Below the pieces are notes generated by a model. That model saw nothing but the letters and a program-made list of their open reading frames with translations, was not told where the DNA came from and made no database searches. From Methanothrix sp. (GTDB lineage Archaea > Halobacteriota > Methanosarcinia > Methanotrichales > Methanotrichaceae): DNA of 64,000 nt. The DNA lies in assembly GCA_026394555.1 (NCBI GenBank), contig JAPKXZ010000071.1, forward strand, positions 1-64,000. The letters are read 5' to 3'. This document shows, in pieces, positions 2,683-48,237 of the stretch. Position 1 is the first letter of the stretch; each line of letters begins with the position of its first letter. A program made the translations under genes and the position numbers.

Positions 2683-5600
2683 TTATATGCCCATATTTGG
2701 GCTGGTTTGGTTGAGAAGTGCCTCGGTTAAATTGATGGCATGCCTGGCGTTTGAATTCTCCGCATCCGTCACTAAAACTCCTTCAAAGGCACGAAGAGCT
2801 TCTTGGTATCTGTTTTGGGCCACCAATGTCAGGCCCCTGTAATATTGGGCATCAATATTTTGCGGCTGCAGCAAGGCTGCGTTCTCAAAACTCTGCAAAG
2901 CCAGATCAAGCTTTCCACTCTGATTTTGCGCCAGTCCCAGTTCCATCCAGGCGACTGCATCCTGCGAATTTAGCCGGGTGGCATTTTGGAAAGCATCTGC
3001 CGATTGGCTGATGCGGCCCAAAGAGTAGTACACCTGGCCCAGATTATACCAGACATCCTCATGGGATGAATCTGCCCGGCATGCCTTTTCCAGGCTCCTA
3101 GCAGCCTCATCGTACCGGCCAATAGAAGCCTGCATGCTTCCCAGATTGGACCAGGCGGCATAGTCTCCCGGATTTACGGATACGATCTCTTGGAAGCATT
3201 TTAGGGCAAGAGAGCTGTTGCCCAGAGCTGCCAGCGCCAGGCCCTTGCCTAGCAATGCATCGACATCAGATGGATTTTGGCTAAGGGATCTATCAAATAG
3301 AGTAAGAGATCTGTTGTACTCTCCATTGGCCGCGAATGCATTGCCCTGTCCCCGGTAGCCGCGGGCGCTGGGATCAAATGCGGTAGCCTGCTCGTAATAA
3401 TGAAGAGCACCACTGTAGTTGCCCCTTTCGTAAAGCACGTCACCCATGCCCAGGAGAGCAGCCACGCTTTTCGGCTGGATGGCAAGAGCCCGCTGATAGC
3501 TTTGCCGGGCGAGATCAACATCCTTGCCGCAGAGCTGTGCATTGCCCCGGCCTGCCCAGGCGGCGGCGTTATTTTCATCCAGTGAGAGGATCTGGTCATA
3601 GGAATGCAGAGCTGATTTGCAGTCCGCCATTGAATATTGAATCCCGGCTTCTCCCAATAATGCCCGAATATTTTGCCGGTCAATTTCAATAACTTTTTCA
3701 TACAGTGGCAATGCCTTATCCGGGAGGCCATTTTGCAGGAAAGCGTCTCCCCTGCCCAGCATTGCCCGCACGTTGCCGGGCTCTAGAGCGAGGACGCGAC
3801 CATAGGCCAGCATTGCGCCGGTCAGATCGTTTTGCTCCAAGAGCACATCTCCCTTACCCAGCAATGCTACCGTATTATCCGGCTCCAGGAAAAGAGCCTG
3901 ATCATAGCACTGCCGGGCCTGCACTTTCTCGCCCAGTTGATGGAGTGCCTCTCCTTTTCCCAGCAGGGCAGGGACGCTTTTCGAATCCTGGGCCAGAGCA
4001 CTGGTAAAGCTTTGCAGGGCAAAGGGATAATCATGCAGCATGAGGAAGCTGTATCCATTGCCCAGCAATGCCCGAAGATCATGGGGATCAATTTTCAGAG
4101 CCTGAGAAAATGCCAGCCGAGAGGAGTTGTAGTCCTGCCGGGCATAAAGGGCCTCAGCCTTTCCCAGCATTGATGCCAGATCGCTGGAGTTGTGCACAAG
4201 TGCCGCCTCGTAGGACTCTAACGCAAGATTGTATTCCTGGAGAGCAAGCTTTGCATCGCCCATGCCCCGCAAGGCGGCTACATTTCCTTTATCCTTTTCT
4301 AATACCTGGGAAAAGCATTGCACTGCCTCCTGGTACTTGGCATTTTCCAGCAGGAGACGGCCTTTGCCAAGCAGAGTCTCTGTATTATTATCATCCAGCT
4401 TTAATGCCTTGTTGTAGCTTTGCAGGGCGCCTTTATAGTTTTGCAGCTTCTCCAAAACCCGTGCCTTATCATTCCACAAGGCGATATTCTCCGGGTCCAG
4501 ACGCAGGGCAGAGTCGAAAAATAGCCCGGCCATTCTATATTTCCCGGTCATGGCCAGGATCTGTCCTTTTAATGCCAGGGCGGGGAGGCTGGACTGATTG
4601 ATTTCTATTGCCCGATCCAGTGAATCGAGGGCTTCGGATTGCCTGCCCAGGTGGGAGAGCATCTGTCCTTTGAGCAGCCAGGCTTCCGACTGGCTGGCAT
4701 CAAGCTCAAGGGATTTGTTGAGGCTCTCCAAAGCCAGAGAATACGAGCCGTTCCGGTTCTGGTTTTTCGCCAGCTCAAAAAAATGGGAGAATTCTGAGAT
4801 CGCCCTAACTTTTTGCCGGGAAGCGTTCCCAGATTCGGCCTCTTTCATCTTGGTGGCAAGTGCTGCCGATGCCTTCTCTTTTCCGGCCAGTGCGCCCGGG
4901 TCCAAAGGCAAAAGGACAAGCGCGGTTTCGTAACTCTTAAGAGCCTCTCTGAAGAGACCGTCGCGCAAAAGCTGGTCACCTTTGACAGTCAGAGCCCTGA
5001 CCAAACCGGACACTGCCACTTCATTTTGCGGTGCAAGACGGGAGGCTTCCCTGAAATATTCAAGTGCCTGGGAGACATTTCCAGCAGCCAATGCTTTTTC
5101 GCCCAAGCCCACCAGAGCCAGGGCCTTGCCCTCCTTTCCCTCCTTGCCCATCTTATCGGAAGAATTTCCGGCCTGGATCTCGTCATAGCAGGCCAGGGCC
5201 AACTCAAATCGACCCAGCCTGTTCAAAGCGTCTCCCTTTAGCATCAGCGCCCGGATATTTTGCGGATCAATGGCAAGAGCCGCATTGCTACTATTATAAG
5301 CCGCCTCAAATTTGCCTTCCTTCAAAAGAGCCGAACTGTGAGCCAGCAGCACTCTAACCTGGCCCGCCTTGCCGGCATCGCTCCGGCCGTAAAGAGAGGC
5401 GTTCTTGTAACTTTGCAGTGCCTCATCATAGCTTTCCAGGGCAAGAGATGCATTGGCCTTGCCCAGCCACGCCTCGGCCAGGTTTGCCTGCAAAGCCAGG
5501 GCCCGCTCGTAGCTCTGCCGGGCTTCGCCCCACTCACCGGCCAGCTCTTTGGCCCTGCCGTCCTCCAGCCATAGGCCGGCATTCCGGGCATCTTTTCCCA

Positions 5601-5895
5601 GGGCATAATTGAAGCACAACTCGGCCATCTTGTAACGGCCCAGCCGGGAGAGGGCAATGCCTTTGCCGCCCCAAGCCGATGCATTCTTCGGATCGATCTT
5701 TATGACCCGGTCAAAGCTTTCGATGGCTAGCGGAAAGCTGCCGTTTGAAAGAGATGCCTGGCCATTCTCCAGCCAGTAGGCAGCACTATCTTTAGTTTCG
5801 GCGGATGCGGGAAGGAAGAGCAGCAGCATACAGGCTAGCATAGCAGAAGAACGCATCAACAACGGGAGGGAAGAGGACTTTTGCAAAGCAATCAC
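2683..5895 (-). CDS. Giant secreted tetratricopeptide-repeat protein, 1070 aa
   Basis: The GTG start at 5895 is followed by a short polar stretch and a hydrophobic signal segment (LACMLLLFLPASAETK), so the product is probably exported. Almost the whole mature part is about 30 tandem 34-residue TPR units with the usual pattern (W.GKG.AL..LG.Y..AL..Y..AL.LDP). A TATA-like box on the minus strand around 5917-5930 suggests a nearly leaderless transcript. An internal ATG just before the signal segment is an alternative start. TPR solenoids bind proteins, and outside the cell this could be an envelope scaffold. A similar protein lies at 23394. Antisense reading frames here are by-products of the repeat composition. 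Confidence 0.85.
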   Translation of the reverse strand: MIALQKSSSLPLLMRSSAMLACMLLLFLPASAETKDSAAYWLENGQASLSNGSFPLAIESFDRVIKIDPKNASAWGGKGIALSRLGRYKMAELCFNYALGKDARNAGLWLEDGRAKELAGEWGEARQSYERALALQANLAEAWLGKANASLALESYDEALQSYKNASLYGRSDAGKAGQVRVLLAHSSALLKEGKFEAAYNSSNAALAIDPQNIRALMLKGDALNRLGRFELALACYDEIQAGNSSDKMGKEGKEGKALALVGLGEKALAAGNVSQALEYFREASRLAPQNEVAVSGLVRALTVKGDQLLRDGLFREALKSYETALVLLPLDPGALAGKEKASAALATKMKEAESGNASRQKVRAISEFSHFFELAKNQNRNGSYSLALESLNKSLELDASQSEAWLLKGQMLSHLGRQSEALDSLDRAIEINQSSLPALALKGQILAMTGKYRMAGLFFDSALRLDPENIALWNDKARVLEKLQNYKGALQSYNKALKLDDNNTETLLGKGRLLLENAKYQEAVQCFSQVLEKDKGNVAALRGMGDAKLALQEYNLALESYEAALVHNSSDLASMLGKAEALYARQDYNSSRLAFSQALKIDPHDLRALLGNGYSFLMLHDYPFALQSFTSALAQDSKSVPALLGKGEALHQLGEKVQARQCYDQALFLEPDNTVALLGKGDVLLEQNDLTGAMLAYGRVLALEPGNVRAMLGRGDAFLQNGLPDKALPLYEKVIEIDRQNIRALLGEAGIQYSMADCKSALHSYDQILSLDENNAAAWAGRGNAQLCGKDVDLARQSYQRALAIQPKSVAALLGMGDVLYERGNYSGALHYYEQATAFDPSARGYRGQGNAFAANGEYNRSLTLFDRSLSQNPSDVDALLGKGLALAALGNSSLALKCFQEIVSVNPGDYAAWSNLGSMQASIGRYDEAARSLEKACRADSSHEDVWYNLGQVYYSLGRISQSADAFQNATRLNSQDAVAWMELGLAQNQSGKLDLALQSFENAALLQPQNIDAQYYRGLTLVAQNRYQEALRAFEGVLVTDAENSNARHAINLTEALLNQTSPNMGI

Positions 5896-23146: not shown

Positions 23147-23393
23147 TTAATTCTCCGGTTGTTGGTGGTTTGGATCGCTCTATGGGTTATTATTCTTTTT
23201 GGGCCAAAATGATATTTAATCGAATCTGATTTTTTTACGACTGCCGTAAAGCTTATATTCGTTATATGTCGTAGTACGTCGCATGCCGTAAATCGTGGTG
23301 GAGAATTGGGGTGGGGAGAGTGGAGCTTATTTGCCTCAGTTATTTGACTTCGACCGCTTTCGGCGTTTACCGAAGAAAAAGGAGAGTGATTTC

Positions 23394-26279
23394 ATGAAAC
23401 GGAATAATAAGTTAGCGAAAGCCAGGTTCGTTATTGTGTTGATGGCCCTGGCCGTGCTGTGCGTTTCTGCTGTGGCACAGGAGAACACTGCCGAAAGCTG
23501 GATTGCAGAAGGCAATGAACTACGATGGAACGGATCGTTCGAAGAGTCGATCATCGCCTTTGATAATGCCATCGATGCTGCCGACTCAAACCAGACATTA
23601 CAGGCAGAAGCCTGGAGCTCTAAAGGCGCAGCTCTATTTGAGCTAGACAGGTACGAGGAGGCCGTCAAGGCATATGACGAATCTCTGGCAAAGAGCAACG
23701 ATGCCTACTTCCTGGGCAGTGGCTGGCTGCTTAAAGGCAATGCTTTAGAGAGCTCGGGAAAGAAAAACGAGTCCGTCCAGGCTTATGAAAAGGCCCTTCT
23801 TGAGGCAGATCGGGCCATAGCGATGGCCAATTCCGGCCAGAGGAAGCCCTCGGATCTGAGTTTATCCCAGGCCTGGCTCTTTAAAGAACAGATTCTTATG
23901 GCGCAGGGAAGATCTGAAGAGGCCCTCCTGGCGTTTGAAAATGCCACAAAAGCAAATCCTGAAGACGCATTTTCCTGGAGTCTGGTAGGGGACATTCTCG
24001 CAGATAATCTGGGCCGGTACAATGAATCACTGGCTGCTTACGACAGGTCTTTGGAAATTGAACCGAATAATTTGGGAGCCTTGCAGGGAAAAGGCAACGT
24101 TCTCCTGAGTTTGGGCAGATACGAAGAGGCACTTGAGTTTTTCAATAAAGCCCTGCAAGTCGACACCAAGTATGCCAGAGCCTGGTATGGCATGGGAGAG
24201 GCGCTCAGGAAGATGGACATGTACAACGAGTCCATTCAGGCCTACGACAGAGCCATCGAGCTGTATCCGCATCAGTTCAAGTATGCCCTGATTGGAAAGG
24301 CAATGACACTGAATAGTCTGGGCTGGCATGAAGAGGCCACCAAAGCCTACAACGAGTCTCTCAAGGATTACGATAGAGTTGTAGAGAATAATCCCGGGAA
24401 TCCTGAGGTCATGTACAACAAAGGAAATGCTCTTCTGGGCCTGGGCAGGTATAATGAATCTCTTCTGGCTTATGATAAGGCCCTGGAGCTAAATCCGAGA
24501 TGCATTGAAGCTTGGTGTGGCAAAAGCATCACTCTGAGGCTGCTAGGCAAACAGGCAGAGGCAGATCTAGCTTATGCAAAGGCAAGAGAGCTGGGGTATG
24601 TGCCTCCTTCTGGCCTACCCAAGCTTCTGGTCGTCACCAACATCATATCTGAAGGAATGGATAGGTTCATAGAAATAACAACTGATCGCAATCAGACCCA
24701 GAGCTTTACGAATTGGAGCATCCATGATGGTGAAAACCGATCTGTGAGTCTTCCTGATTTTTCTCTTGAGCCGGACAGCAAGCTTCGGCTTCATTTCGGC
24801 AAAGGACTGAGCAATAAGACAGACCTCTTCCTTGACGCCGGATTCGATCTGAACGAGATTGGCGGAGATCTGACCTTTAGGAATCAGGCCCTTGGACAAG
24901 AATTCTTCATGACTTACTGGACTCCTGGCTTGATGCATGAGAACACCACGGACTACTGGGTAACAAAGGCCAAGGATCTCAGGCTGAACGGCTCAACCGA
25001 TGAGGCCATCTCTGCATACGACCGGGCCCTGCAGATCGATCCCTCAAATGAGACCGTCTGGACCTACAAAGCCCAGGAGCTTGCCTTCTCCGGGAGAGAT
25101 AAGGAGTCCCTCCGGGCTTTTGAAAAGGCGCTTGGCATTCTGGATGACAAATTGAAGATGAATCCTCAGGATGCCAAGGCCTGGATGAAGAAAGGCCGGG
25201 CTTTGAGCAGCTTGGGCCGGCAGAATGAATCCAACCAGGCCCACGAGATAGCGGTGCAGATCTTCAATCAGAGCATCCAGAAGGACACCAAGAACGTCAG
25301 CCTCTGGAGGAACATGGCTGAGGCGCTCATGAATCTAGGTCGGTGGGAAGAGGGCTTGCAGGCTCTGGACAGGGTGACGGAGATTGATCCCAAGAACCTG
25401 GACGCCTGGGAGAGAAAAGGCGAGTTTCTTACCTTGATGAGCCGGACCAACGAGTCTCTGCAAGCCTTGGACAGGTCTTTAGAGCTGATACCGGAGAACG
25501 ACACCAAAGAGCGATCACTGATCTGGATGGCCAAGGCCCAGTCTCTTTCCTATGTGGACCGGAAGGAAGAGACCCTGGCGGCTCTGGACAGGGTTACGAA
25601 GCTGGACCCGAGCTTTGTTGTGGCCTGGCGCACCAAGGGATATCTTCTGGCCGATCTGGGCAGACAGAATGAATCTCTGGCCGCCTACGAAGAGGCCATT
25701 AAGATCGATCCCGCCGATGCTCTGACTTGGAGCGAAAAGGGCTCGCAGCTTGTTCAATTAAAGAGATACAACGAATCCCTGCCCGCTTTCGAGCACGCCC
25801 TGGAGCTGACGCCCGAGAGCGGCAGCAAAGAGCGAGCCCAAATCTGGATTTCTAAGGGAGAGGCCCTGAACAAGACCGGCCGGCAGGAAGAAGCCCTGGC
25901 CGCCTTCCAAAAGTCCGTTGATGCATCAGAAAGGGCACTCTTGAGCAATGCCAACGACACGAGCGTCCTGGAGCTGAAAGGCCGGGCGCTTCTCAAGCTG
26001 GGCAAGTACGACGAGGCCATAAAGGCATTTGAGCAGGCCATCGAAACGGCTATGCCCGGATCATTCCATGCACCGACGATCTGGATAGGCAAGGGCGACG
26101 CCTTGCGTGCTCAAAGGAAGAACGAAGCGGCGCTGGAGGCCTACAACCAGGCCATCCTTCTAAGTCCCATCTATTCCGATGCCTGGGCGGGCAGGGGCGA
26201 GGCCCAGAAGTCGATGGGCCTGGTCACCGAAGCCAGCGGGTCATTCTACCTGGCCAGGATACTGGGGTACGAGGGGTGA
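23394..26279 (+). CDS. Secreted TPR protein with lamin-tail domain, about 960 aa
   Basis: ATG 23394 has AAAAGGAGAG upstream and begins a signal peptide (FVIVLMALAVLCVSAVAQ). TPR-like units fill roughly residues 35-400. Residues about 405-510 form a lamin-tail-like beta domain (LLVVTNIISEGMDRFIEI, FTNWSIHDG, LRLHFGKG). A second TPR array follows to the end. Such a solenoid-beta-solenoid layout outside the membrane suggests an envelope scaffold or adhesion role. The upstream region has TATA-like GCTTATATTC and two direct TGCCGTAAA copies (23242-23250 and 23285-23293). It is related to the giant protein at 2683 and to the stump at 26353. Confidence 0.82.
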   Translation: MKRNNKLAKARFVIVLMALAVLCVSAVAQENTAESWIAEGNELRWNGSFEESIIAFDNAIDAADSNQTLQAEAWSSKGAALFELDRYEEAVKAYDESLAKSNDAYFLGSGWLLKGNALESSGKKNESVQAYEKALLEADRAIAMANSGQRKPSDLSLSQAWLFKEQILMAQGRSEEALLAFENATKANPEDAFSWSLVGDILADNLGRYNESLAAYDRSLEIEPNNLGALQGKGNVLLSLGRYEEALEFFNKALQVDTKYARAWYGMGEALRKMDMYNESIQAYDRAIELYPHQFKYALIGKAMTLNSLGWHEEATKAYNESLKDYDRVVENNPGNPEVMYNKGNALLGLGRYNESLLAYDKALELNPRCIEAWCGKSITLRLLGKQAEADLAYAKARELGYVPPSGLPKLLVVTNIISEGMDRFIEITTDRNQTQSFTNWSIHDGENRSVSLPDFSLEPDSKLRLHFGKGLSNKTDLFLDAGFDLNEIGGDLTFRNQALGQEFFMTYWTPGLMHENTTDYWVTKAKDLRLNGSTDEAISAYDRALQIDPSNETVWTYKAQELAFSGRDKESLRAFEKALGILDDKLKMNPQDAKAWMKKGRALSSLGRQNESNQAHEIAVQIFNQSIQKDTKNVSLWRNMAEALMNLGRWEEGLQALDRVTEIDPKNLDAWERKGEFLTLMSRTNESLQALDRSLELIPENDTKERSLIWMAKAQSLSYVDRKEETLAALDRVTKLDPSFVVAWRTKGYLLADLGRQNESLAAYEEAIKIDPADALTWSEKGSQLVQLKRYNESLPAFEHALELTPESGSKERAQIWISKGEALNKTGRQEEALAAFQKSVDASERALLSNANDTSVLELKGRALLKLGKYDEAIKAFEQAIETAMPGSFHAPTIWIGKGDALRAQRKNEAALEAYNQAILLSPIYSDAWAGRGEAQKSMGLVTEASGSFYLARILGYEG

Positions 26280-42150: not shown

Positions 42151-42260
42151 GTCTGATAGGCCTCATTATGAGCCTTGATAGCATCGCCGTACCTGCCCTT
42201 GAAACCGAGGCTAGTAAGTCCATCCTGCAATTATCTATCAAGTTCTCAGTCCCTTGCAAG

Positions 42261-42272
42261 AATTATAAATAG
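42261..42272 (+). promoter_or_regulatory. TATA box of the sensor operon
   Basis: AATTATAAATAG about 25-30 bases before ATG 42294 predicts a transcription start at or just before that ATG. This supports 42294 over GTG 42288 as a leaderless start. Confidence 0.45.
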
Positions 42273-42293
42273 TAGTCCAAACTATTAGTGTAT

Positions 42294-44315
42294 ATGGATA
42301 GGCATACGATAAGGATCTTGTTCGGAATTTTGTTACTTATACCCTTACTGTCTGCTACTTGCTCGGCAATCAGTCCCAGTCCAGCCAAACAAGTCCTCAT
42401 CTTGGCCTCTGATCATCCTGGAATGAAATGGGAGGACTCGATTGATGGGGCGATAAAGCTACGTCTCGCAATCAGCATGCCATCCGCAATTGTCAACGTC
42501 GAATATATGGATACAAAAAGAATCGATCCCAACCAGACCCGCCTCGCAGAACTAAAATCGTTGTATGTTAAAACATATAAAAATGTGCATTTCGATCTGA
42601 TTATCGCGACCAATACAGATGCCTTTAATTTCTTGCTTAATAATGGGGATGCTATATTTCCAGGAACTCCTGTGGTCTTCTGCGGTGTTATCGACTTCAA
42701 CGACAGAATGCTGGATGGAAAGCCGGGATTCACAGGCGTCGTGGAGACGTACGAGGTTCTTGACACGATCTCATTGATGCTCCATCTGCACCCCGGTGCT
42801 CGACACATTGCAATTATAACCGATCAAACCGCCACGGGTAAGGCTAATCGAAAGGTCGTCGAACTAGCCGTCTCCAACTTCAAACAAAGCATCTCCTTTG
42901 AATTCCTGGACAATATGACCGCAAATGAACTTCGTGAACAGGTTGCCACCTTATCCAACGAGAGCCTCATTTTACTTATGACCTTCAACCGAGATAGAAC
43001 CGGGAAAACATTGACTGATGAGGATTCATCGGAGCTGATTCGAGGTGCTTGCTCAGTTCCAATTTACAGTGTATATGATTTCTATCTGGGATACGGTGTC
43101 GTAGGGGGAAAGATGATCAGTGGGACCTCTCAAGGCGACCAGGCGGCTGATCTTGCTCTTCGAGTCCTCCGAGGCGAACCGGCAAATAAAATACCAGTGA
43201 TAAAGAAGACCGCTACTCGTAACATGTTCGATAAGTTTGAACTCAATCGTTTTGGTGTTCCCCTCATCAATCTGCCTCAAGATAGCGAAATTATCAACCA
43301 GCCATTCAGAGATCATGCCCATCTCATAGGTATGAACTTAAGCGGCCTGGACCTGTCAAGGACTAACCTGAGCAGATCGGATCTGCAAGAGGCAAATCTC
43401 AGCGGTGCAAATCTGTCGGAGGCTAACCTCGAAGATGCCTGGTTAAACCAAGCCACACTGGTTAAAGCCCGGCTGAATGGCACAAATTTGAAAGGAGCAC
43501 ACTTGAGTCATTCTGATCTCTCAGGTTCCGATCTCAACGATACCGATCTGACTGATGCCAAGCTGGATGAAACAGATCTAAGAGGCGCAACTCTAAATAA
43601 CGCTAGGCTCTCCAAAGCCGACCTAACCCTTGCTAAAATGCCCGGTGCTAATCTAGATAGAACGATCTTGATTGGATCCAGAATCAATTGGGCAGATCTG
43701 AGCGGGAGCCGTATCTATTACTGTCAATTCGCGAGATCTGACCTATTTGGTGCAAACCTGAGCAACTCCGACTTGACAGGCTCGGATTTTACTCGAGCGT
43801 ACTTACCCCGAGCCAACCTTTCTGGAGCCATGCTGAGAGATACCATATTGCAAAACGCAGACCTAACCAATGTCAATTTATCGGGAGCTCACTTCCATGG
43901 AACCAAACTAGATGATTTAAATGCGAATTATGCCGACTTTTCGGGTGCCGACCTCACTGGAGCCGTCTTGAGATCGATGAATCTGAAGGGGACAGTTATG
44001 CGCAAAACAGTGTTAAGATCAGCTATCATAAGTGGATTGTTGTTGGACCATGCAGATCTATCCCAGGCCGATCTCAGAAATGCTACGATTAGCACAATCT
44101 ACATGGATAATGTAAACCTTTCAGGGGCGGATCTGCGAGGAGCCAACCTGACCATGGCGGTTCTCAAGGATGTCAATCTGGGCGGCGCCAATCTTGAGGG
44201 CATCAAGTATGATAATGTTGCACTCCAATCTCTGGCTGTATCAAACCTCGATGGGGCTAAAATGGGTGTTGATCTGCAAAAGGATCTCAAAGAAATGAGT
44301 AATCTGGAGGGATAA
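42294..44315 (+). CDS. Exported substrate-binding domain fused to a pentapeptide-repeat solenoid, 673 aa
   Basis: A signal peptide (residues about 6-26) is followed by a periplasmic-binding-like domain (about 30-320). It carries KQVLILASDHPGMKW, FDLIIATNTDAFNFLL, GTPVVFCGVIDFND, GARHIAIITDQTATGK and YGVVGGKMISGTSQGDQAA, resembling the ABC-type sensor/substrate-binding family PF04392. From about residue 345 the chain is all pentapeptide repeats (A(D/N)LSx), some 60 units, forming a right-handed quadrilateral helix. I know of no standard family with this combination. It is encoded immediately before an SBP3-Cache protein (stop and start overlap as TAATG). No transporter permease or kinase is adjacent. 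Ligand binding outside the cell is likely. Confidence 0.75.
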   Translation: MDRHTIRILFGILLLIPLLSATCSAISPSPAKQVLILASDHPGMKWEDSIDGAIKLRLAISMPSAIVNVEYMDTKRIDPNQTRLAELKSLYVKTYKNVHFDLIIATNTDAFNFLLNNGDAIFPGTPVVFCGVIDFNDRMLDGKPGFTGVVETYEVLDTISLMLHLHPGARHIAIITDQTATGKANRKVVELAVSNFKQSISFEFLDNMTANELREQVATLSNESLILLMTFNRDRTGKTLTDEDSSELIRGACSVPIYSVYDFYLGYGVVGGKMISGTSQGDQAADLALRVLRGEPANKIPVIKKTATRNMFDKFELNRFGVPLINLPQDSEIINQPFRDHAHLIGMNLSGLDLSRTNLSRSDLQEANLSGANLSEANLEDAWLNQATLVKARLNGTNLKGAHLSHSDLSGSDLNDTDLTDAKLDETDLRGATLNNARLSKADLTLAKMPGANLDRTILIGSRINWADLSGSRIYYCQFARSDLFGANLSNSDLTGSDFTRAYLPRANLSGAMLRDTILQNADLTNVNLSGAHFHGTKLDDLNANYADFSGADLTGAVLRSMNLKGTVMRKTVLRSAIISGLLLDHADLSQADLRNATISTIYMDNVNLSGADLRGANLTMAVLKDVNLGGANLEGIKYDNVALQSLAVSNLDGAKMGVDLQKDLKEMSNLEG

Positions 44316-45529
44316 TGCTGAAGATTGAATCAATGCTATCCATAGCATTACTGACCATGTTTATTGCTCCTGCCATGGGTTATGAGCCAGCCCCATCGAT
44401 CGAGCATCTGGTTTACATAACTGAGCAATTTCCGCCTTTCAATTTCCAAGAAGAGGGAATACTTAAGGGCATATCTGTTGACCTGCTGGATAGGATGCTC
44501 AATCGCATGAACCTGGATCTAAATCGCAGCAGCATTAGATTACTGGCATGGGACGTAGGCTATCAGATTGCTTTAAAAAAGAATAATACAGTTCTCTTTT
44601 CAACCACTCGATTGCCCGAGAGAGAATCGTCCTTCAAATGGGTAGGTCCTATAAGTCCCATCAAAATCGTTCTATTTGCCATGAATGATACGGCGATAAA
44701 TATAGGATCGCCGGAGGATCTGAAGAATTACAAGATTGCAGTCATCCAAAATTCAGCTGAACAATTATTGGCCATTAAGGCGGGTTTGGATCCCAAGGAT
44801 TTGGTCGTTGAAAATGATTCGAATATCATTATGAAACGACTAGAAGATGGAACTATCGACGCCTGGGCTTATGCGGATATTCCTGGCATGTGGCTACTCG
44901 ATAGATACGGCATTAAGACGAGCCAATACCGGACGGTCTATGATTTGGGAGACGATTTTGAGCTCTACTACGCTTTCAATAAGGATACGCCGGACTCTTT
45001 AGTGCAGGCTTTCCAGCGTGCTTTGAATCAAACTAAGCAGGAAAAGGACCTCGACGGAATTGGCGATTACGAAAAGATCCTCTATAAGTATATACCCCCC
45101 AGATATAGCAAGCAAAACATTACGGATGAACAGGTCATCAGGTTGGCGAATTTCACATCATCACGTATCGAAAGCGATGCTCCTGATGCATTCAAGAAAA
45201 TCTCCGCCGGAGAGCACCCGTTCAAGGACAAGGATAATCCCGCGCTCTACGTCTTTGTGTACGATACGGAGATAAATATGATAGCTCATGCCGATAATCC
45301 TCGATTAGTCGGTATGAATTTCATGGGCAAGGTGGATGTCAGCGGAAAGAAATTCAGAGACGATATTGTGGCAGGGGCGATAAAAAATAGGACCGGCTGG
45401 GTAGATTACATATACACAAATCCGGCTGAGAGCGGCCTCTATTATAAAACTACCTACTACACGCTAACCAGAGGCAGTGACGGAAAGCTGTACGTAGTAT
45501 GCTGCGGCAAATATAAAGAAGCACAATGA
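44315..45529 (+). CDS. Exported SBP_bac_3 plus Cache sensor-like protein, 404 aa
   Basis: Signal peptide up to about residue 22. Residues 30-250 form a family-3 solute-binding domain (VYITEQFPPFNFQEEGILKG, RLPERESSFKWVGP, KNYKIAVIQNSAEQLL). Residues about 280-400 look like a Cache domain (NPALYVFVYDTEINMIAHAD, NPRLVGMNFMGKVDVSGK, TGWVDYIYTNP). The order SBP then Cache without a transmembrane helix or signalling output is unusual. Its start overlaps the stop of the pentapeptide fusion gene. It probably binds small ligands outside the cell, perhaps with that partner. Confidence 0.75.
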   Translation: MLKIESMLSIALLTMFIAPAMGYEPAPSIEHLVYITEQFPPFNFQEEGILKGISVDLLDRMLNRMNLDLNRSSIRLLAWDVGYQIALKKNNTVLFSTTRLPERESSFKWVGPISPIKIVLFAMNDTAINIGSPEDLKNYKIAVIQNSAEQLLAIKAGLDPKDLVVENDSNIIMKRLEDGTIDAWAYADIPGMWLLDRYGIKTSQYRTVYDLGDDFELYYAFNKDTPDSLVQAFQRALNQTKQEKDLDGIGDYEKILYKYIPPRYSKQNITDEQVIRLANFTSSRIESDAPDAFKKISAGEHPFKDKDNPALYVFVYDTEINMIAHADNPRLVGMNFMGKVDVSGKKFRDDIVAGAIKNRTGWVDYIYTNPAESGLYYKTTYYTLTRGSDGKLYVVCCGKYKEAQ

Positions 45530-45536
45530 TGACGGG

Positions 45537-45878
45537 GTGAAAGGGACCTTGAGCGAAAAAATACACTGCTACGATTCCATTCTTACCTGGCACATAGGAC
45601 CTCCCCTATATTTGGTCGTAATCTTCGTTTTTCTGATATCCCTGTACTTTTCTCCGTTATCCTCAGCCGTGACCGATAAATCAGGACTAATGAAGCTGAT
45701 CTCAGAAACGGAGGATTCCTACTTAAGCGTAAATGACCTGGCATTTATCTTGGCGACACACGATTTTGATGCTACCCCAAAAGGAGATTATGTTGAGGTC
45801 CGCCTTAACGACGTCGTCCTCAAGTTGGTGCCCAACGGCTCGCATCCGGGACTAGCTAATGTGACTATTATGTCTTGA
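45537..45878 (+). CDS. Small membrane-anchored protein, 113 aa
   Basis: GTG 45537 is 8 bases after the SBP-Cache stop. One TM segment (residues about 22-46, YLVVIFVFLISLYFS) is followed by an exposed domain of about 65 residues, LAFILATHDFDATPKGDYVE and VVLKLVPNGSHPGL. No family recognised. Position makes it the third gene of the sensor operon, possibly an anchor. Confidence 0.55.
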   Translation: MKGTLSEKIHCYDSILTWHIGPPLYLVVIFVFLISLYFSPLSSAVTDKSGLMKLISETEDSYLSVNDLAFILATHDFDATPKGDYVEVRLNDVVLKLVPNGSHPGLANVTIMS

Positions 45879-46159: not shown

Positions 46160-46597
46160 ATGAAGACAATTATAATTCTTGTAAGCCTATTAGCAGCCGT
46201 TTCTCTGGCTGCTGCGTATACCCCAGAACAACAAGCCACAGTAGACGGAGTGCACCTGTCCTTCCAACTCGGTCAATCATACGACAAAGCCGCCCAGGGT
46301 CAAGATGTCCCAGTTTTCAATGCCCTGGTCGATAAGTGGAATGCATGGGTCGTCAAGAACTTTGGAAATGACACTACTTTGCTCATGGCAAAGATGACCG
46401 TACCAGTCAATTTGCAAAAGCCCTATATGGCTGCCGGAAACAACACAACAAGCAAGGGCATAACCCATGAGATAAATGGTGAAGGGGCGAAATATACTAC
46501 CAACGATGTCAACCTCATGTCAGACGCAGCCATCGCAAAGTATGCGACATCGACACAAGGAAAAAACCAGGGTGCAGATTTCCTTGGTGGGGTCTGA
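46160..46597 (+). CDS. Small secreted protein, 145 aa
   Basis: Signal peptide MKTIIILVSLLAAVSLAAAY, then a helical region (FQLGQSYDKAAQGQDVPVFN, LVDKWNAWVVKNFG) and a polar tail rich in Asn/Thr with N-glycosylation-type sites (GNNTTSKG). I recognise no domain. A TATA-like TATTAATA lies about 27 bases before the ATG. Confidence 0.6.
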   Translation: MKTIIILVSLLAAVSLAAAYTPEQQATVDGVHLSFQLGQSYDKAAQGQDVPVFNALVDKWNAWVVKNFGNDTTLLMAKMTVPVNLQKPYMAAGNNTTSKGITHEINGEGAKYTTNDVNLMSDAAIAKYATSTQGKNQGADFLGGV

Positions 46598-47299: not shown

Positions 47300-48139
47300 C
47301 TAAGAAGTTTCCAGACCTTCAGCAGCACGGCAGTCATCAATACATTGGGTACCGCTGCTGTCGCGACATCCGCTCCAACAACCAAGTTCAGCCGCAGCAT
47401 CACCAACGGCTTTGAAGATGTCATTTAAATTGACTCCGTAGGTTTGGGGGGCGTATTCAGTGCTGACATACCCCACCCCCAGGGTAAGCCAGGTTATTGC
47501 CATCTTTTGGCCGTTTTCGGTAACTAGATAGCTGGGTTTGGATGTCAAATTCTCAGTAACTATCACATAGTTCTGACTGAGTACCGGCGTGATGCTTTGA
47601 GTTGGTGTTGACGCTTCCTGTGGCTCTACTGGCCAGAGGGAGTCATCACCGGCCGTGACTGGCAAGCTGAGGTACTTAAGGTGGTAACTCGCTGAACCGG
47701 TCAAGCTAATATCGTAACCAGAAGCGGACCCACCATAGGCCTCTACAATGTCGCCGACGTTAATATTGGAGTCCATGGTCCCCCTGGGATACACTGTCGG
47801 ATCAGCCGAAGTCAGGTAGATTGATATTGTTTTGTCTTTCATTTCAGGTGGCCCTTCCACGACATTATCTACATAAACGTTCCAACCCCATGCCCCGATT
47901 CGGTCGAATTTGCTGATTGCTGTTCCTTGAATCGTAATGTCCCCAAGGTATCCTGTTCCAGAGTCCAGCGGAGTTACAACTGGGACCAGATGATTTTCGC
48001 TGTTATTTGCGACCAGAACGTCTGGAATAGGCATTCTTTCAAAAGTTTCGCGCTTGCTATGCGCTGCAATTCCGTCAGCAAACCCTACCGCCAATAGCAG
48101 CATTGCCGCTATTGCCAATATTCCAATTTTTTTATACAT
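47300..48139 (-). CDS. Secreted protein of unknown function, about 279 aa
   Basis: ATG 48139 opens a signal peptide (MYKKIGILAIAAMLLLAVGF). The mature part looks beta-rich, with GTGYLGDITIQGTAISKFDR, GAWGWNVYVDNVVEGPPEM and VGDIVEAYGGSASGYD, suggesting an OB/immunoglobulin-like fold. It ends in a Cys-rich tail (CWSGCRDSSGTQCIDDCR), possibly disulfide-bonded. No family recognised. Confidence 0.6.
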   Translation of the reverse strand: MYKKIGILAIAAMLLLAVGFADGIAAHSKRETFERMPIPDVLVANNSENHLVPVVTPLDSGTGYLGDITIQGTAISKFDRIGAWGWNVYVDNVVEGPPEMKDKTISIYLTSADPTVYPRGTMDSNINVGDIVEAYGGSASGYDISLTGSASYHLKYLSLPVTAGDDSLWPVEPQEASTPTQSITPVLSQNYVIVTENLTSKPSYLVTENGQKMAITWLTLGVGYVSTEYAPQTYGVNLNDIFKAVGDAAAELGCWSGCRDSSGTQCIDDCRAAEGLETS

Positions 48140-48237
48140 TTTTCTTACCTTCAGTAATATATCATTGTCTTTCATGATAATTAAAAGGCGACGGTCAGAA
48201 AAGAGAGGTGGAACCCAGAGCGCCTCTGTCCTCTGTT

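Follow-up and report, generated by a model that had tools for sequence, protein, structure and literature searches.

Methanothrix is an acetate-eating, methane-producing archaeon and a major source of methane, and little is known of the ways in which it senses solutes, or gathers them, behind its sheath. We describe three close-packed genes, all with exported products, at positions 42294-45878 of a 64,000-nucleotide (nt) stretch of a Methanotrichaceae genome (Methanothrix sp., contig JAPKXZ010000071.1), hereafter the window. Gene 1 fuses a PF04392-type binding domain (SBPX) to a pentapeptide-repeat solenoid, gene 2 joins SBP_bac_3 to a Cache domain, and gene 3 encodes a small protein, SM. Genes 1 and 2 overlap by one base and genes 2 and 3 are separated by 7 bases, confirming the tight packing reported in an initial annotation made from the sequence alone.

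The SBPX-pentapeptide protein and its conservation

Gene 1 and its upstream element comprise the following features:

42258..42273, + strand: BRE (B recognition element)/TATA promoter element AAGAATTATAAATAGT, kept in four Methanotrichaceae orthologues, in which the sequence further upstream is not
42294..44315, + strand: gene 1, exported PF04392-type binding domain plus pentapeptide-repeat solenoid (SBPX-PENTA)
42294..42371, + strand: N-terminal export signal (hydrophobic window, Kyte-Doolittle (KD) 2.4), with no further transmembrane segment
42387..43298, + strand: SBPX domain, class I periplasmic-binding fold, from profile, PDB and fold matches
43305..44207, + strand: pentapeptide solenoid of about 60 pentapeptides in 15 coils, roughly 7 nm long, from profile, register and model
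44214..44306, + strand: two C-terminal helices with the motif AKM(S/G).DLQ.DL, common to the family's other exported solenoids

The initial annotation had read gene 1 as a PF04392-type domain followed by some 60 pentapeptides, and profiles, a register test and an AlphaFold2 model all agree with it. ABC_sub_bind (PF04392) matches residues 95-312 just above its cut-off (26.9 bits vs 25.9, E = 3.5e-6), and Pentapeptide (PF00805) matches in nine separate stretches (E = 8.6e-70). In the best register, 58 of the 60 central positions of the solenoid are L, F, M, I or V; a stricter pattern is fitted by 53 in-register pentapeptides, against a mean of 10 and a maximum of 18 in 2000 shuffles. The AlphaFold2 model (mean predicted local distance difference test (pLDDT) 87, with 95-98 in the solenoid) has a two-lobed binding protein (residues 34-337), then a solenoid that spans about 340-640, and ends in two C-terminal helices. 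The solenoid part matches the pentapeptide structures 3du1, 2bm5 and 2xtw in Foldseek searches, and gene 1 has both the A(D/N)LXX repeat and the quadrilateral solenoid that define PF00805 proteins. No second hydrophobic segment was seen in gene 1; the solenoid stands there instead. Lipoprotein anchoring was considered and rejected, as the Cys at the end of the signal is missing in the L004 orthologue and no lipobox is conserved among orthologues.

Two starts are candidates for gene 1, GTG 42288 (675 amino acids (aa)) and ATG 42294 (673 aa), with the end at 44315. The ATG is the more likely, because orthologue L004 begins there and the conserved TATA lies about 27 nt before it. The ATG is placed some 25-27 nt downstream of the TATA centre, a spacing conserved in four species, and a start so close to the TATA probably yields a leaderless transcript.

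Genes 1 and 2 are 79-88% identical to their orthologues in L004/L041 and L042, and the same gene order with near-zero gaps recurs in L004/L041, L042 and L048; SM was not found in L042 and stands 78 bases away in L048. Ratios of nonsynonymous to synonymous substitution rates (dN/dS) against L004 are 0.26, 0.17 and 0.47 for genes 1, 2 and 3, respectively, and all three genes are under purifying selection. The initial annotation had named two ways in which it might be mistaken, an artefact of frame or assembly and transporter genes in the real operon. The first is ruled out by the orthologues, the dN/dS ratios and the conserved promoter, and no transporter gene adjoins the trio.

Origin and variation of the fusion

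About 40 SBPX loci were read, with neighbours judged by eye and partial Pfam scans, and outside Halobacteriota breadth was sampled by one scan of genome contigs. The fusion is found at about 35 loci in five genera, so that the architecture is not unique to the window genome, a point on which the initial annotation had asked for a check. SBPX matches occur in 31 of 50 Methanotrichaceae genomes and in 51 of the 393 genomes of the phylum.

In every close relative SBPX is succeeded by pentapeptides; the most distant relatives are kinases. A tree of 63 SBPX domains unites the 34 fusions in one clade (support 100/98), which is present in 100% of bootstrap trees, and the fusion state changes once, against a shuffled mean of 21. 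By this domain tree, the fusion arose once. All non-family SBPX proteins judged (20 archaeal loci and two from Nitrospirota) carry a transmembrane-like helix and then PAS/kinase-like sequence, and a pentapeptide run was found in none of the 22. The archaeal sequences were judged by eye, and L006 and L007 were confirmed by Pfam; a Desulfobacteraceae SBPX record is masked beyond the binding domain and was therefore not counted. The distant SBPX proteins of Methanotrichaceae itself, L071 and L076, also have the helix and kinase form. Fusions and kinases have in common the linker FD..EL..F.I....LP.....N, and the start of the solenoid coincides with the position of the transmembrane helix in the kinases. 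Since all relatives judged outside the clade are kinase ectodomains and the solenoid occupies the transmembrane position, gene 1 is, as judged by sequence, a sensor kinase ectodomain minus its kinase, set on a rod. The initial annotation's reading of a substrate-binding domain is corrected to this extent, the nearest relatives being histidine-kinase ectodomains and not transporter proteins. Loss of the kinase is the more likely direction of change; the root of the SBPX tree is not fixed and the direction is not proven. A decayed fusion was also seen (L079:5050-7576, identical to L009), in which SBPX is split into several frames and intact SM and solenoid genes adjoin.

The nearest solved structures of the SBPX head are CD0873 (Tyr), TrpX (Trp) and VC_1101 (Phe), which Foldseek aligned over about 320 columns (TMt 0.68-0.73); in a sequence profile search against the PDB, CD0873 was the sole significant relative (E = 1e-5). 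Polar residues conserved at 94% or more are enriched in the loops where strands end at the cleft (14/72 vs 16/232, Fisher p = 0.003). Overall conservation of the SBPX cleft loops is not significantly raised (p = 0.18), and cleft conservation as a whole was accordingly rejected, the polar subset alone being significant. Binding of a small molecule by the head is most likely retained.

Most other fusions are longer than that of the window (836-973 aa vs 675 aa) through extra coils, giving rods of about 7 nm in the window and up to about 15 nm in paralogues. These large steps in solenoid length would suit a structural or adhesive envelope protein, in which the solenoid packs in the sheath or surface-layer (S-layer) lattice and the head is vestigial or adhesive. 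The same role would fit the stronger constraint on the solenoid than on the binding domain (dN/dS 0.23 vs 0.29 to L004, and 0.14 vs 0.40 to L003) and the presence beside the fusion of free exported solenoids that share its C-terminal cap. CD0873, the closest solved relative, is likewise a binding protein that doubles as an adhesin (PMC6816091). We nevertheless consider this role unlikely, as every full-length member retains the binding domain together with its invariant polar set, and several distinct binding proteins accompany the fusion.

Partner genes of the fusion

The second and third genes of the locus are as follows:

44315..45529, + strand: gene 2, exported SBP_bac_3 plus single Cache protein, with no transmembrane segment past the signal
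44414..45061, + strand: SBP_bac_3 domain of gene 2, from a profile match
45098..45526, + strand: Cache region of gene 2, with a profile match at 45245-45463
45537..45878, + strand: gene 3, encoding SM, a small protein, exported or anchored, from a family restricted to Methanotrichaceae
45669..45875, + strand: conserved SM domain, predicted alpha-alpha-beta-beta-beta-beta, core pLDDT about 75-85

The SBP_bac_3 and sCache_2/dCache_2 profiles are all over cut-off in gene 2, as the initial annotation had proposed. The combination is not an unusual one: full-length stand-alone exported SBP3-Cache proteins, with 48-51% identity to gene 2, occur across Halobacteriota, which rules out a new architecture. 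In other Halobacteriota, some SBP3-Cache relatives (L228, L225, L227 and L230; 650-960 aa) are longer and contain SBP3 twice; they are exported and apparently orphan, and some carry a lipobox-like signal.

SBP3-Cache lies beside the fusion in four loci alone (the window, L041, L042 and L048), and a Bmp/PnrA-type binding protein lies near it in seven (L040, L045, L046, L053, L057, L060 and L062). A free exported solenoid precedes or follows the fusion in several loci. The trio is thus one edition of a modular locus. A fixed three-gene operon is ruled out, gene 2 being replaceable, and the idea of the trio as a conserved unit falls with it; the gene order of the window is kept in the loci named above, and other fusion loci have other partners.

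PF04392 and SBP_bac_3 are families of transporter type, and a Bmp (PnrA-like) binding protein is present in some paralogous loci. This raises the possibility of orphan transport proteins that scavenge nutrients for ATP-binding cassette (ABC) permeases encoded elsewhere, the solenoid just retaining or spacing the protein. We regard this as improbable. No linked permease or ATPase was recognised beside about 33 fusion loci by neighbour reading and partial Pfam scans, the closest sequence relatives are kinase ectodomains and not transport proteins, and a C-terminal rod of 7-15 nm would be unusual for permease docking.

Inspection of the flanking genes found no permease, kinase or chemoreceptor adjoining the window trio, as first reported. 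The kinase part of that statement does not extend to three paralogous loci (L044, L057 and L063), where the gene directly upstream of the fusion encodes a large soluble hybrid kinase; another such kinase lies upstream of a free solenoid in L113. No clear transmembrane segment was seen in these kinases, and a place for them as a core component is unsupported, most of the 42 family matches (E up to 1e-25) lying elsewhere. Separately, a hybrid kinase with a PocR sensory domain was noted in the window's own genome (L114:152-3412, contig C73), with a broken SM copy reported at its end. The upstream kinases bear on a further alternative, a soluble co-receptor or decoy that would act in trans to tune membrane kinases of the SBPX type, or two-component systems of another kind, in the way that the secreted pentapeptide protein YjbI silences two envelope-stress systems in Caulobacter (PMC12864828). 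SBPX kinases do share genomes with the fusion (G017, G025 and G031; 30-32% identical, in frames of about 1030 aa), and kinase domains were confirmed for L071. The upstream hybrid kinases, however, are soluble members of an expanded family whose copies lie mostly elsewhere, and no SBPX kinase match was obtained in the window genome itself. We hold such a role to be very doubtful.

SM is small, as first described; the description as a membrane protein is half right, its single N-terminal hydrophobic stretch being either a signal peptide or a single anchor. It is followed by an exported domain of about 68 residues with the invariant core DLAF.L.TH..A.P ... PN...GL. SM had no Pfam match, its predicted model, of moderate quality, had no PDB fold match, and PDB sequence searches with SM and its long form gave no match. 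It was found in 15/15 Methanotrichaceae genomes and 0/378 others in the phylum sample (42 of 50 family genomes by a less sensitive search). SM is an undescribed family and adds a family-specific partner without a recognised fold.

At 20/33 loci the recurrent partner, SM, is no more than two genes from the fusion, upstream in some and downstream in others, and this variable side suggests repeated retention, not one frozen arrangement. Among the 26 short SM copies of nine well-assembled genomes, 10 have an exported solenoid no more than two genes away, where about 2% would be expected by our own estimate from 7 pentapeptide genes in 2.53 Mb. A long form of about 230 aa, with SM at the N-terminus and conserved Cys, His and Asp, stands directly beside exported solenoid genes in 11/15 loci (for example L110:4214-4906, L059:5838-6509, L120:4201-4881 and L198:4445-5119). 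The Cys/His/Asp triad is present in 14/15 long forms; in L117, Cys and His have both been lost and there is no solenoid near. The triad aligns in register, if with weak scores, to a pair of PF01841 proteins from the same genome. No Pfam profile matches the long form, which by inspection only appears transglutaminase-like.

Several further observations were made. Repeated peptides in several frames at L059:1-3300 (FNSLFIGIGSAI / FQFPFHRDRLCN) are a sign of a clustered regularly interspaced short palindromic repeat (CRISPR) array, which would lie about 2.5 kb upstream of a cluster of SM-transglutaminase-like, solenoid and fusion genes. At L112:2066-5666, on contig C24 of the window's own genome, a 193-aa protein with a TIR/SEFIR-like start (KVYISHSPADEDMALQLARALG) precedes a pentapeptide protein of 989 aa; the pair looks cytoplasmic and is perhaps a conflict or defence system. 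In the window, the trio is flanked by housekeeping genes and short unknowns: genes for eIF-6, a prefoldin-like protein and FtsY lie upstream of it, and short unknown genes and a DNA-polymerase-B-like gene lie downstream. Two exported-looking proteins without a Pfam match are encoded just past the operon (46160-46597, 145 aa; 47300-48175, 291 aa), and two very long tetratricopeptide (TPR)-repeat proteins at 2683-5895 (1070 aa) and 23295-26279 (994 aa).

Proposed function and comparison with known systems

We tentatively favour, as a possibility somewhat short of probable, an exported ligand-capturing receptor or scaffold module of Methanotrichaceae, in which a former kinase ectodomain is carried on a pentapeptide rod with SM as partner. 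An SBPX kinase ectodomain would have shed its transmembrane segment and kinase and, a single time in the clade's ancestor, been joined to a pentapeptide beta-solenoid that ends in a helical cap. The head would close around a small molecule outside the membrane, in a space that we take, from general knowledge of Methanothrix envelopes, to lie beneath the sheath. The stiff rod may hold the head at a fixed distance, or dock it to partners between membrane and sheath. SM would probably serve as an assembly or docking factor for exported solenoids, and SBP3-Cache in the window, or Bmp elsewhere, may be exchangeable second binding proteins that broaden the ligand range. With a rod in place of membrane anchor and kinase, signalling would have to run via docking, assembly or buffering outside the membrane; the output may be buffering of the ligand, or a ligand-dependent docking to receptors or transporters of the membrane whose genes lie elsewhere, and not direct kinase signalling. 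Of the undescribed sensing, scavenging or surface-scaffold system first suggested, an exported ligand-binding or scaffold role fits best, and the trio as its unit does not stand.

Several results weigh against this module. The predicted template modelling score (pTM) of gene 1 is 0.58, so that the mutual placement of binding domain and solenoid is uncertain. One residue helps to set side-chain preference in the solved relatives (Tyr279 in CD0873, Tyr262 in VC_1101, Gln284 in TrpX; PMC6816091); the aligned stretch of SBPX (ISG.SQG) has no counterpart of Tyr279/Gln284, and its ligand therefore cannot be named from the CD0873/TrpX alignment. The window copy carries Y42D and Y312N (numbered from GTG 42288) at positions that are Tyr in 94% of fusions. 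SM stands away from any solenoid in 16/26 copies, which rules it out as a solenoid-only partner, and it is absent beside every fusion locus read in genus g9.

A more elaborate form of the receptor module would be a kinase-free, multi-component scaffold under the sheath, with exchangeable binding proteins on or beside rods of graded length, assembled by SM, modified or cross-linked at some loci by SM-transglutaminase-like enzymes, and read out by extracellular assembly. We offer this as a speculation that is quite unlikely to hold in full.

Taken singly, the parts of the locus are of known kinds. No description of the fusion, of its single origin and spread, or of its linkage to SM was found in the literature searched. 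No paper on binding-domain pentapeptide proteins in Methanothrix/Methanosaeta was found in that search, which covered only a minority of subscription journals. Gene 1 agrees with ABC transporter PF04392 proteins in profile and fold, but no linked permease or ATPase was recognised. CD0873, TrpX and VC_1101 (6hni, 3lft and 3lkv) have the class I binding fold in common with SBPX, but identity is 14-17% and the specificity residues are unshared, and SBPX has a solenoid and no linked ABC transporter. Gene 2 is a full-length member of the stand-alone SBP3-Cache proteins, but is placed here in an operon with a solenoid fusion. HetL, Qnr and MfpA have the solenoid fold of gene 1; unlike it, they are about 180-220 aa long, without export signal or binding domain, and gene 1 scores below the cut-offs of the gyrase-protection equivalogs (Qnr 97 vs 240 bits, MfpA 76 vs 360).

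For extracellular pentapeptide proteins, one well-worked precedent was found in the literature searched: YjbI, an exported pentapeptide protein of Caulobacter that silences two envelope-stress two-component systems (PMC12864828). Like YjbI, gene 1 would be an exported quadrilateral beta-helix acting outside the cytoplasmic membrane, its export being predicted from a signal-like N-terminus. The two conserved Cys pairs and the membrane-crossing C-terminal tail of YjbI are absent in gene 1, the window solenoid having one Cys; no binding domain is described for YjbI, and its envelope differs from that of Methanotrichaceae. The closest comparison is with the SBPX/ABC_sub_bind sensor histidine kinases of Halobacteriota and Nitrospirota, which have a homologous exported ectodomain (22-41% identity) and the linker FD..EL..F.I....LP...I(I/V)N, but continue into a transmembrane helix, PAS and kinase where gene 1 has its pentapeptide solenoid. 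A sensor domain split from its kinase once, and then spread on rods, would offer a testable case of a receptor rebuilt as an extracellular scaffold.

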